A stretch of 20,119 bases of DNA from a virus. Where the stretch lies: positions 1 to 20,119 of IMG/VR virus record IMGVR_UViG_3300028925_001481; one strand, given 5' to 3'. The position numbers and the translations under genes are program-made. A model generated the notes under the pieces. That model saw only the letters and a program-made list of their open reading frames with translations. It did not search any database and was not told the origin of the DNA. Shown here piece by piece: positions 668-4,968 of this stretch. Every line of letters begins with the position of its first letter. Position 1 is the stretch's first letter.

Positions 668-1036
668 ATGAAAAGCGACATTAATAAGGCAATTAACACA
701 GTTAAGCCTAAATCTATGGGTAGACCTAATAAAAAGGTAGATGAGAAAGTAATAGCAAATTTAAGCCAAATAGGTTGCACTCAAGAAGAAATAGGTTCTG
801 TTGTAGGAATATCTGCTAGAACATTACAAAGAAGATTCTCCGATTTAGTAGAGAATAATAAAAACATTGGAAAAGCGAGTTTAAGAAAGAGAATGTGGAG
901 TTCTGCTTTAAAAGGCAATCCAAATATGATGATCTGGTTATCTAAAAATTATCTAGGTATGAAAGATCGTACAGTTCAAGAAACTATTGTTGAACCTTTA
1001 CCTTTAATTATTGAAGCTAAAGTTGAAGATGTGTAA
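668..1036 (+). CDS. terS: Probable terminase small subunit (HTH protein)
   Basis: This 122-residue protein has a helix-turn-helix at about residues 37-57 (TQEEIGSVVGISARTLQRR), the DNA-recognition fold of many small terminases. The segment at about 79-101 (ALKGNPNMMIWLSKNYLGM) matches a pattern I recall from phage TerS-like proteins. The small subunit would recognise the packaging site and load the large subunit encoded at 3733-4968. A GAGG at 650-653 lies about 14 nt from the ATG, a long spacing. The gene is unusual in being separated from terL by about 2.7 kb of mini-genes. The alternative is a transcription regulator, but the C-terminal motif and capsid-module context favour TerS. Confidence 0.7.
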   Translation: MKSDINKAINTVKPKSMGRPNKKVDEKVIANLSQIGCTQEEIGSVVGISARTLQRRFSDLVENNKNIGKASLRKRMWSSALKGNPNMMIWLSKNYLGMKDRTVQETIVEPLPLIIEAKVEDV

Positions 1037-1970: not shown

Positions 1971-1995
1971 GACCCTAGTATGATAAATGTCTTTT

Positions 1996-2103
1996 ATGGA
2001 CAAATACATTTACAAATTTTTAGATCTTATAGATAGATATACGTCATTTATTGGCAATCTATTTGCACCCAGATGTAAATGTAAAAGAAAGAAAAAAAAA
2101 TGA
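1996..2103 (+). CDS. Small basic protein with C-terminal CxC motif (35 aa)
   Basis: The ATG at 1996 gives 35 residues; an in-frame ATG at 1987 would add three. The product has an amphipathic N-terminal helix (KYIYKFLDLIDRYTSFIGN) followed by LFAPRCKCKRKKKK, so it ends in a CxC pair embedded in Lys/Arg. The stop overlaps the next start (ATGA, 2100-2103). The gene is too short for statistical support, but the coupling and the non-random composition favour it being real. It may associate with membranes or nucleic acid. Function is unknown. Confidence 0.5.
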   Translation: MDKYIYKFLDLIDRYTSFIGNLFAPRCKCKRKKKK

Positions 2104-2269: not shown

Positions 2270-2386
2270 ATGAATATAGATAAGTGCAAGGATTGTAATT
2301 GTGATTGTCATTGTAATGTTAAAGACCACCCTAATTCCAAAGGTGTTTGTCCTTGTGAAGATTGTAAATGTAAAGAAAAGAAATAA
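2270..2386 (+). CDS. Metallothionein-like Cys-rich mini-protein (38 aa)
   Basis: ATG at 2270 and TAA at 2384-2386 give a 38-residue protein with nine cysteines (6, 9, 11, 13, 15, 27, 29, 32, 34) and His14 and His20. The N-terminal cluster CKDCNCDCHC has C-x2-C-x-C-x-C-x-C spacing. The C-terminal cluster CPCEDCKC has C-x-C-x2-C-x-C. A Cys-free linker with Asp-His-Pro separates them. Two dense CxC clusters, no aromatics and many Lys/Asp are the hallmarks of metallothioneins, which bind Zn, Cu or Cd through thiolates. It does not match the cyanobacterial SmtA layout that I know. No clear SD precedes it, so it probably depends on coupling to the gene upstream. Metal binding is inferred. Confidence 0.7.
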   Translation: MNIDKCKDCNCDCHCNVKDHPNSKGVCPCEDCKCKEKK

Positions 2387-2707: not shown

Positions 2708-2926
2708 ATGGATTTAAAAGATAAAATAGTAGGTTTAGCTTTAGCAGCTTTAATTGCATTAGTTGGTTGGAATTTAAAAGAAACTTGGACTATGAAAGAA
2801 GAAGTTTTTAAACTCAAACAAGGACAAATATTTTTATCTGAGCAGATGAAAAAGAATAATAATATTGTTAAACGTAATATTAGAAAACAAAATAAGAAAA
2901 ATAAGAAGAAGAAAAATGATAACTGA
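2708..2926 (+). CDS. Small membrane protein with Lys-rich tail (holin-like candidate)
   Basis: The 72-residue protein has one TM helix near the N-terminus (about residues 7-22, IVGLALAALIALVGWN). A short helix follows (MKEEVFKLKQGQIFLSEQM) and then an extremely basic tail (KNKKKKNDN). By the positive-inside rule the tail should be cytoplasmic, which is more holin- or anchor-like than inner-membrane spanin-like. It overlaps the following lipoprotein gene by 11 nt. The context of a lipoprotein and another TM/coiled-coil protein next door makes a lysis role possible but unproven. Confidence 0.55.
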   Translation: MDLKDKIVGLALAALIALVGWNLKETWTMKEEVFKLKQGQIFLSEQMKKNNNIVKRNIRKQNKKNKKKKNDN

Positions 2927-3137
2927 AAAAACAATCATATTATTGCTTTTCCTAACTTTAGTTGGAGTGGGTTTAGCTGGTTGTAAAACTAATATTCTTA
3001 ATACTGCTGTATGTCCTGATAAGACAAGTATAGAAATTGGAGTAACTGAAACAGATGCTAAAAACGATAAGTTACAAGAAAAGAAATCTATAACTCAAAC
3101 TTGGAAATGGGGAAAGAAGAAGTGTAATGAAAGTTAA
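2916..3137 (+). CDS. Small lipoprotein (possible outer-membrane spanin)
   Basis: The ATG at 2916 is preceded by an AAGAAGAAG tract and gives a 73-residue protein. An upstream in-frame start at 2865 would put 17 basic residues before the signal and is less likely. The N-terminus is a type II signal peptide: TEK, a hydrophobic core, then LAGC with the lipobox Cys at residue 23. The mature part of about 51 residues has two further Cys and is polar with KWGKKK near the end. It overlaps the preceding gene by 11 nt and the following one by 11 nt. Lipoproteins overlapping a TM/coiled-coil gene are typical of spanin pairs, though the order here is reversed and no proline-rich segment is seen. Confidence 0.65.
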   Translation: MITEKTIILLLFLTLVGVGLAGCKTNILNTAVCPDKTSIEIGVTETDAKNDKLQEKKSITQTWKWGKKKCNES

Positions 3138-3522
3138 TTCAAATACATCTGTGGATATGCCATTAAAGAATTTAATTGGAATTGTTTGTAGTGTTGCTGT
3201 TGGAGTGTGGGCATACTTTGGAGTAATAGAAAGAATCAATCTTTTAGAAACTGATAGTACATTAGTTAAAAAAGATTTATCAAAAGCAGTTGAGTTTTCA
3301 ATAAAGTGGCCGCGTGGAGAATTAGGAAGTTTACCTGCTGATTCTGAGCAGTTCCTTTTAATCGAATCTTTGCTAGGTGATGTTGAATACATTCAATTAG
3401 AAATTAAAGAATCAAGACATAACGCAGTTAATATAAAAAGACTTCAACAAGATGTGGATAAAATTTTAGCAGCAATAGAAATTCTTAAAGACAAAGTAAG
3501 AAACAACGGCAGTAATGATTGA
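3127..3522 (+). CDS. TM plus coiled-coil protein (possible inner-membrane spanin)
   Basis: A 131-residue protein has an N-terminal TM helix at about residues 15-31 (LIGIVCSVAVGVWAYFG) followed directly by a coiled coil (VIERINLLETDSTLVKKDL). A central segment contains KWPRGELGSLPADSEQF, and a second helical region (IKRLQQDVDKILAAIEILK) follows. The central motif resembles one I recall as conserved in marine phage proteins of unknown role. An N-in, C-out topology with a periplasmic coiled coil fits an inner-membrane spanin, and a lipoprotein gene overlaps its start. The 3' end overlaps the next gene by 8 nt. Confidence 0.65.
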   Translation: MKVNSNTSVDMPLKNLIGIVCSVAVGVWAYFGVIERINLLETDSTLVKKDLSKAVEFSIKWPRGELGSLPADSEQFLLIESLLGDVEYIQLEIKESRHNAVNIKRLQQDVDKILAAIEILKDKVRNNGSND

Positions 3523-3727
3523 GGTAGTAGTAGCTTTGTTGATGATAGTTAATAACGAAATCAAAGAACATAGAATACAGCCCTCAATGAGTGAATGTTT
3601 AAAAGGTAAACGTATTGCTACTAGAGTTTATAATGCTAATGTACAATATCAATGTATCAAATCAAAAGCAGAAACAGAAATTTATATGGGTGAAAAATCA
3701 ATTAAAAAACTTATATTATCTGAATAA
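3515..3727 (+). CDS. Small conserved-looking protein with two Cys
   Basis: A 70-residue product begins with a short hydrophobic stretch (IEVVVALLMIV), then NNEIKEHRI, Cys28 in SECLKGKRIA and Cys47 in YQCIKSKAE, ending in KSIKKLIL. It starts 8 nt inside the previous gene and ends five bases before the large terminase start. The hydrophobic start, KE, ECL and late Cys are arranged as in the protein at 1749-1970. The hydrophobic start is too short for a convincing signal peptide. It resembles small proteins I recall next to terL in marine phages. Function is unknown. Confidence 0.6.
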   Translation: MIEVVVALLMIVNNEIKEHRIQPSMSECLKGKRIATRVYNANVQYQCIKSKAETEIYMGEKSIKKLILSE

Positions 3728-3732
3728 ACTAA

Positions 3733-4968
3733 ATGAAAATATCCCTCACTAAACCTCAACTAGAGGTTAGTAGTTCTAAAGCTAGATTCAGAATATTAAT
3801 ATCAGGAAGAAGATTTGGTAAGACTTATCTTTGTATAACCGAGATGATGAAATATGCTACTCAACCTAATCAGAAAATATGGTATGTAGCACCAACATTT
3901 AAGATGGCTAAAGAGATCGCTTGGGCAAGTCTTAAAGAAATGCTTAATTCTTTTAATTGGATAGAAGATATTAACGAAACTACTATGACGATTAGAATAA
4001 GAAAATCTAATAGTACAATCTCATTAAAGGGTGCTGATAATTATGATAGTTTAAGAGGTAGTGGATTAAACTTTCTTATATTAGATGAATTTGCAGATAT
4101 AGATAAACGAGCATGGTTTGAAGTATTAAGGGCTTCTGTTTCTGATACTTTAGGTAGAGTATTAATGTGTGGAACTCCTAAAGGCTATGGAAACTGGTCT
4201 TATGAAATGTATTTAAAAGGAAAGCAAGATGCAGAATGGGATAGTTACCAATACACTACTTTAGAGGGTGGTATAGTTTCAGCAGACGAAATAGAACAAG
4301 CTAAACAAGATATAGATATTAGAACTTTTAGACAAGAATTTGAGGGTACATTTGAGAACTATGCTGGTTCTGTTTATTACAACTTCCACCCAGTTGATAA
4401 TGTTGTTAAGAAAACTATTGATTGGGAAAAACCTTTACATATAGGAATGGACTTTAATGTTGACCCTATGTCAGCTTGTGTAGGGCAAATGGAAAAAGAT
4501 AAAATGTATTTTGTTGATGAAGTAATCATTTATGGAAGCAATACAGACGAAATGGTTCAAGAATTAAGAGATAGATATGGTACTAAAATACCAATCTTTA
4601 TATATCCTGACCCAGCTTCTAAACAAAGAAAAACATCAGCTGGTGGAAGAACTGACTTATCTATTCTTCAAAATGCTGGTTTCAAAGTTAAAGTTAAAAA
4701 TAAACACCCAGCAATTAGAGATAGAGTCAATGCTGTGAATAGTAGATTAAAAGATTCTACTGGAGTAAGGCATATTTTTGTTTCACATTCTTGCAAAACA
4801 TTGATAAAAGGATTACAAAGACAGATATACAAAGAGAATACAAATATTCCTGATAAGGAAGATGGATTCGACCATATGAATGACGCACTAGGTTATATGA
4901 TTGATTATTTAAAACCATTAACTACTCAGACAGTATTTAGTTCTCCTACAAGATGGACAATGAAATAA
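3733..4968 (+). CDS. terL: Terminase large subunit
   Basis: This 411-residue protein is the DNA-packaging motor ATPase and headful/cos nuclease. Walker A is SGRRFGKT at residues 24-31, Walker B is FLILDE with Asp118 and Glu119, and the coupling motif is CGTPKGYGN at 146-154. The C-terminal RNase H-like nuclease domain has GMDFN with Asp240, YPDPAS with Asp293, and DGFDHMNDALGY with candidate acidic ligands Asp380 and Asp384. The length is typical of compact terminases. Only five bases separate it from the preceding stop and one base from the portal start, so it is in an operon with portal. Confidence 0.96.
   Translation: MKISLTKPQLEVSSSKARFRILISGRRFGKTYLCITEMMKYATQPNQKIWYVAPTFKMAKEIAWASLKEMLNSFNWIEDINETTMTIRIRKSNSTISLKGADNYDSLRGSGLNFLILDEFADIDKRAWFEVLRASVSDTLGRVLMCGTPKGYGNWSYEMYLKGKQDAEWDSYQYTTLEGGIVSADEIEQAKQDIDIRTFRQEFEGTFENYAGSVYYNFHPVDNVVKKTIDWEKPLHIGMDFNVDPMSACVGQMEKDKMYFVDEVIIYGSNTDEMVQELRDRYGTKIPIFIYPDPASKQRKTSAGGRTDLSILQNAGFKVKVKNKHPAIRDRVNAVNSRLKDSTGVRHIFVSHSCKTLIKGLQRQIYKENTNIPDKEDGFDHMNDALGYMIDYLKPLTTQTVFSSPTRWTMK

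Follow-up and report, generated by a model that had tools for sequence, protein, structure and literature searches.

A large, conserved family of probable metallothionein-like proteins in viruses of SAR11

Introduction

What use does a phage have for a gene of 38 codons whose product is nearly one-quarter cysteine? The question is raised by the window analyzed here, a virus record 20,119 bases long in which such a gene lies upstream of the large terminase gene, itself followed by the portal and major capsid genes. Trace metals limit the microbes of the open ocean, and SAR11, the ocean's most abundant bacteria, ranks together with its phages among the most abundant biological entities of that environment. 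A preliminary description of the window had proposed a metallothionein-like gene of possibly distinct phage type; what emerges is not a feature of one phage but a family with many members, most of them in pelagiphages. The sequences reveal, in SAR11 viruses, a large and strongly conserved family of probable metal-binding (metallothionein-like) proteins that had not yet been catalogued. A phage-specific family of this kind, almost universally present at a single locus in a major lineage of pelagiphages, would tie viral infection to metal handling, and it would give unannotated open reading frames a testable function and metallothionein chemistry a new Cys9His2 scaffold.

A cysteine-dense open reading frame between the terminase genes

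Translation of the plus-strand reading frame (Table 1) yields the 38-residue product MNIDKCKDCNCDCHCNVKDHPNSKGVCPCEDCKCKEKK, followed by a stop codon, and bears out the 38 codons, nine cysteines, two CxC-rich clusters, and Cys-free, His-containing linker of the preliminary description. Five of the nine cysteines (24% of residues) lie in CKDCNCDCHC and four in CPCEDCKC; His14 is inside the first cluster, and the linker holds His20. The start codon is supported by an MNIDKC start that is common to the nearest relatives (for example, L143, L160, L191, L206, and L213). Structure prediction with AlphaFold2 gave low confidence (pLDDT 61.5), as would be expected of a peptide organized by metal, and so says little either way. 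The proposed profile search against phage and metallothionein families came back empty for the window protein, with no match in Pfam, PHROGs, NCBIfam, PADLOC, or PDB or by tblastn in phage records.

The gene lies between a terminase small subunit (TerS)-like gene and the terminase large subunit (TerL) gene, which agrees with the packaging region named in the preliminary description, but its immediate neighbors are not packaging genes: it sits in a variable stretch of small reading frames, most of which look like membrane or secreted proteins. A reading frame this short might be a functionless product of chance. When the window was shuffled 300 times with dinucleotides preserved, no ATG-initiated reading frame of 20 to 60 residues contained nine cysteines, the maximum being eight, reached once; with homologs at about 190 loci and a dN/dS of about 0.1, a chance origin is refuted by conservation and can be set aside.

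Table 1. Coordinates of the metallothionein-like gene, its motifs, and neighboring features in the window
Feature	Position	Strand	Evidence or remarks
Terminase small subunit, left border of variable region	668..1036	+	phrog_309, E=7.7e-11
ORF for 38-residue amphipathic helix with polybasic tail	1987..2103	+	Homologous to N-terminal part of fused proteins
Metallothionein-like gene	2270..2386	+	ORF and translation; homologs at ~190 loci; dN/dS ~0.1
Cysteine cluster 1, C6-x2-C-x-C-x-C-H-C15 (CKDCNCDCHC)	2285..2314	+	Invariant positions; reciprocal search
Linker His20, probable metal ligand as judged from sequence	2327..2329	+	Invariant in alignment of 93
Cysteine cluster 2, C27-x-C-x2-C-x-C34 (CPCEDCKC)	2348..2371	+	Reciprocal search
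Small transmembrane and coiled-coil ORF, i-spanin-like, cassette neighbor	2708..2926	+	In 19/191 carrier loci
Transmembrane and coiled-coil protein, phrog_20984, recurrent neighbor	3127..3522	+	In 90/191 carrier loci
Small secreted or transmembrane protein, recurrent neighbor	3515..3727	+	In 74/191 carrier loci
Terminase large subunit, right border	3733..4968	+	81-88% identity to HTVC202P, HTVC111P, HTVC112P, HTVC026P

The family is conserved at Cys and His positions

Homologs were gathered from viral contigs by DNA-pattern and gene-neighbor searches, which recovered about 190 loci (191 in the tabulation of carriers) with the consensus CKxCNCxCHC-x4-H-x6-CxCxxCx[C/H]. Independent DNA patterns were used for the two halves of the gene, one covering cluster 1 alone and the other the linker together with the beginning of cluster 2, so that each half could be read from the set picked by the other: 116 of the 118 unique sequences picked by cluster 1 alone contained cluster 2 in the form CxCxxCx[C/H], and cluster 1 was present in 91 of the 94 picked by the linker and the start of cluster 2. 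C6, C9, C11, C13, H14, C15, H20, C27, C29, and C32 are invariant in an alignment of 93 members, and position 34 is occupied among 144 unique members by Cys (112) or His (32) and by no other residue. The window copy is free of aromatic residues, as the preliminary description had it; most relatives are not, since 98 of 134 unique cores have a single Tyr in the linker.

Since the search patterns themselves determine part of the counts among pattern-found sequences, a further survey dispensed with the cysteine motif and took the adjacent upstream gene (phrog_3704) as its anchor (80 loci, 76 of them with enough downstream DNA). About 70 of the 76 informative loci contained a Cys-rich homolog, 50 of the classic form and about 20 variants, mostly CKKC[N/G]HLCHC; a few relatives in this survey had reduced ligand sets (CNKMCHC variants). 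In an alignment of 69 locus-anchored sequences, selected by the presence of a CHC motif and of six or more cysteines, the main ligand columns held only Cys or His, gaps aside, with the third Cys column split 48 C to 17 H, the ninth 53 C to 16 H, and the linker His column containing H in 60, C in 2, and neither in a few others. The composition of the linker varied widely among these relatives.

Pairwise Nei-Gojobori dN/dS values, which are rough since synonymous divergence is high, were 0.08 to 0.10 in the locus-anchored set, 0.08 in the pattern-found set, and 0.27 in alignment columns free of the search patterns. Two checks named in the preliminary description, conservation of the cysteines among homologous phages and a Ka/Ks distinct from 1, thus came out in its favor: the Cys positions are kept, with Cys/His swaps the sole changes, and dN/dS across relatives (0.08 to 0.10) is far from 1. 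The family is real and conserved, and it is under purifying selection at ligand positions filled by Cys and His.

Carriers are pelagiphages

The carriers are pelagiphages of the HTVC027P/023P-like and HTVC202P-like (window) groups, together with one T7-like phage. Among the 191 loci, 136 had an HTVC027P-like replication block (polA and/or phrog_3704), 10 belonged to the TerL/portal lineage of the window, about one had T7-like structural genes, and 43 were without lineage assignment; the nearest polA relatives of the carriers were mostly pelagiphages. The gene is near core in HTVC027P/023P-like pelagiphages and accessory in the HTVC202P-like lineage of the window, where it was present in 2 of 42 viral contigs having at least 3 kb upstream of TerL. 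Both of these contigs encoded an identical protein, and the gene lay elsewhere in the same cassette, downstream of the homolog of the reading frame at 3515; its rarity and its different place indicate that it is accessory and mobile in this lineage and therefore not essential there. Seven regions from related isolates or references were read (HTVC202P/111P/112P/026P, HTVC027P/023P, and 023Pt_psg01), and all of them lacked the gene. HTVC202P, HTVC111P, HTVC112P, and HTVC026P share the terminase of the window but lack the gene in the region read around TerL, and HTVC027P and HTVC023P have the replication block seen in carriers but lack the gene in the regions read. The main text of a survey of HTVC023P-type genomes mentions neither metallothionein nor cysteine (PMC9599517).

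The genes are so short that standard annotation misses them; an unannotated copy sits in the gap between the scaffold and capsid genes of KT997847.1, a deep Mediterranean Chosvirus. A further copy was found in the SAR11 single-cell genome RIS_SAG_32 (L338), on a contig that also has polA and helicase genes of phage type. This was the one true homolog in bacterial genome contigs among the at least 126 matches listed, the others listed being low-complexity or antisense Cys stretches, and no further match came from 297 sampled genomes of the SAR11 family, 385 of the class, and 398 of the phylum. PF02069, the bacterial metallothionein profile, matched 0 of 197 SAR11 family genomes, with a positive Synechococcus elongatus control. 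Judged from these sequences, and for bacteria from the matches listed, the gene looks phage specific and resident in hosts without a known metallothionein.

The gene upstream of the family in the HTVC027P-like lineage (for example, L338:4886-5530) encodes 216 to 219 residues with few cysteines, and its names conflict, being ferredoxin in PHROG 3704 and phosphoribosylaminoimidazole synthetase (PurM) in HTVC027P.

Tails, fusions, and cassette neighbors

A C-terminal tail such as VVDDTxECESCQ follows the core in 129 of 144 unique members; the ECExCQ tail is missing from the window copy and from L206 and L213. The family tails (VIDDTNDCEWCQ; RTY..DH..D.SFENE) appear again on small phage proteins that are unrelated. 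The VVDDTxECESCQ type is also found on another small protein (L447:3777 and L459:3783), and the alternative tail resembles the N terminus of a DUF3310 protein in isolate HTVC033P (MZ892993.1 13915-14214), recurrences that mark the tails as modular. Such recurring tails may be shared short docking or processing motifs.

A second module is attached at the other end of the protein in some phages. In the window, 166 bases upstream of the metallothionein-like gene, a separate reading frame (1987-2103) encodes MSFMDKYIYKFLDLIDR...CKCKRKKKK, a predicted amphipathic helix with a polybasic tail. The corresponding sequence, MIDKxIYKFFGxLD...KKRKKRK, is fused to the metallothionein-like domain in six loci (L088, L112, L122, L141, L162, and L164) and stands alone in four (L028, L029, L040, and L055). 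AlphaFold2 predicted a helix at residues 2 to 28 of the fused form with modest confidence (pLDDT 55.5).

The cassette between TerS and TerL is made up of small secreted, lipoprotein, transmembrane, and coiled-coil reading frames (2473-2694, 2708-2926, 2916-3137, 3127-3522, and 3515-3727), some of them spanin-like. A neighbor-cluster protein with the transmembrane and coiled-coil layout of 2708-2926 weakly matched the Rz-like spanin phrog_739, and the neighbor cluster homologous to 3515-3727 matched phrog_24646. Cassette members have homologs that repeatedly lie next to the metallothionein-like gene in pelagiphages that are unrelated, which suggests a shuffled lysis or envelope module.

This setting, together with the basic-helix fusions, could indicate a membrane or adaptor role instead of soluble buffering. 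The protein would then be a structural zinc knuckle in which one to three Zn only fold a small platform for a host or phage partner, in host takeover or in a membrane or lysis-cassette function, and metal handling would not be its purpose. Conserved nonligand residues (K7, G25, and the D of HsDxYGV) are consistent with such an adaptor, as are the polybasic helix fused in several phages, the recurrent small membrane, lipoprotein, or spanin-like neighbors, and the modular tails common to other small phage proteins. We nevertheless consider it unlikely, since 11 candidate ligands in 29 residues with almost no hydrophobic core exceed what mononuclear sites need and the linker is highly variable in composition.

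Other small reading frames were noted. A 69-residue reading frame of the same cassette (1540-1749) contains CGNC...C...C, a possible small zinc ribbon, and a 102-residue reading frame at 289-597 has an HELFH (HExxH) motif and weak matches to putative metallopeptidases (phrog_1233, phrog_87, and DUF6782). Another Cys-rich small protein, RYCKKCNCRCHCYAPECPxCANDxCYxCxCK (L147:887 and, on the minus strand, L195), has cluster 1 alone in common with the family and is possibly a second phage family.

A putative zinc buffer in infected SAR11 cells

That eleven Cys and His residues are conserved within 29 positions, that Cys and His interchange, and that a hydrophobic core is absent all speak for a multinuclear metal-thiolate cluster, and the participation of His along with its exchange for Cys favors Zn(II). 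The proteins probably form a new metallothionein-like family of phages. The core probably holds about three Zn(II) in a thiolate cluster, with its nine Cys and one or both of its His folded around the metal; relatives with two extra tail cysteines might bind about four. No signal peptide was seen by eye, and the protein would be cytosolic. During infection of SAR11, in which bacterial metallothioneins appear to be missing, the protein would capture zinc and buffer it, and possibly Cu(I) or Cd as well, with the metal coming, for example, from degraded host proteins or answering a need of phage Zn enzymes. We infer metal binding, the preference for Zn, the stoichiometry, the cytosolic location, and the buffering role, and we favor with reasonable but far from full confidence the whole reading of a cytosolic metallothionein-like Zn-thiolate protein that buffers zinc in infected cells.

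A Cu(I)-binding, MymT-like metallothionein guarding against copper or oxidative stress in infection would share the CHC motif, the cytosolic type, and the CxC-rich composition, which is typical of Cu-thioneins. It is improbable, because the repeated Cys/His interchange at three ligand positions suits Zn better than Cu(I) thiolate clusters, and no copper genes were noticed near the gene. Very little likelihood attaches to a redox, disulfide, or iron-sulfur protein whose cysteines would serve as thiol switches or as ligands of a cluster. In its favor, phrog_3704, to which the upstream gene of the HTVC027P-like lineage belongs, is labeled ferredoxin, but that name is unreliable because the same gene is called PurM in HTVC027P; moreover, classical Fe-S spacing is absent, the core Cys number is odd, and His swaps at Cys positions would break disulfides.

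Within the zinc-binding reading, the physiological role might be that of a buffer, a sink, a supplier of Zn to phage enzymes, or a membrane-associated function. More speculative, and in our judgment doubtful, is the idea that a pelagiphage metallothionein family unrelated to SmtA seizes SAR11 zinc, starving host Zn proteins or supplying phage enzymes, tethered to the membrane by the basic amphipathic helix in some phages and near core in some lineages. If true, zinc piracy would be a general takeover strategy in the ocean's most abundant host-virus system.

Comparison with known metallothioneins

The preliminary description had set the protein apart from the cyanobacterial SmtA type. At the level of homology the distinction stands: PF02069 matched neither the window protein nor 93 family members, and hhalign of the family against SmtA homologs gave a probability of 2.7% over 15 columns, so homology to SmtA is not supported. 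More broadly, searches of Pfam, NCBIfam, PHROG, PADLOC, and PDB and the hhalign comparison with SmtA turned up no known metallothionein with significant similarity in sequence or profile. At the level of ligands the separation is less clear. SmtA proteins (PF02069 Metallothio_Pro; PDB 1jjd, 6gv7, and 6grv) are likewise small and Cys dense, and their set of 9 Cys and 2 His equals the 9 Cys, His14, and His20 of the phage family, the metal-binding His of the latter being predicted only. The N-terminal CxCxxCxC of SmtA has the form of phage cluster 2, and its C-terminal H-x6-C-x-H-x2-C-x-C corresponds to H-x6-C-x-[C/H]-x2-C-x-[C/H] in 143 of 147 phage members, a likeness that was noticed post hoc and whose half-spacing arises in about 0.3% of residue shuffles. 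The full SmtA spacing, CxCxxCxC-x15-Cx3Cx3Hx6CxHxxCxC, is not matched by the phage family, which shares the spacing of the C-terminal half alone; the family is also without the zinc-finger-like middle conserved in SmtA, CxC...(Y)YC-x3-C, and differs in its 29-residue core, its carriage by phages, and the ECExCQ tail of many members. No SmtB/ArsR regulator was noticed among those neighboring genes that were scanned. The likeness may be either convergence or very remote descent.

No paper on a phage or viral metallothionein was found in the open-access literature, which was the scope of the search. Metallothionein-like proteins are a known kind; what appears to be new is this family, with its arrangement of Cys and His and its distribution among phages. 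A Pseudomonas metallothionein holds a Zn3Cys9His cluster, close to the Cys9 plus His set of the phage family (PMC7387436). The window protein has the high Cys fraction in CxC/CxxC motifs and the paucity of aromatic residues that characterize metallothioneins as a chemical class, and the family has conserved ligand positions under selection. Like the vertebrate beta-domain (M3Cys9), fungal, and plant representatives of that class, the phage proteins place nine Cys in CxC/CxxC clusters with few aromatics; they differ in their conserved His ligands, and no sequence relation to these representatives was found.
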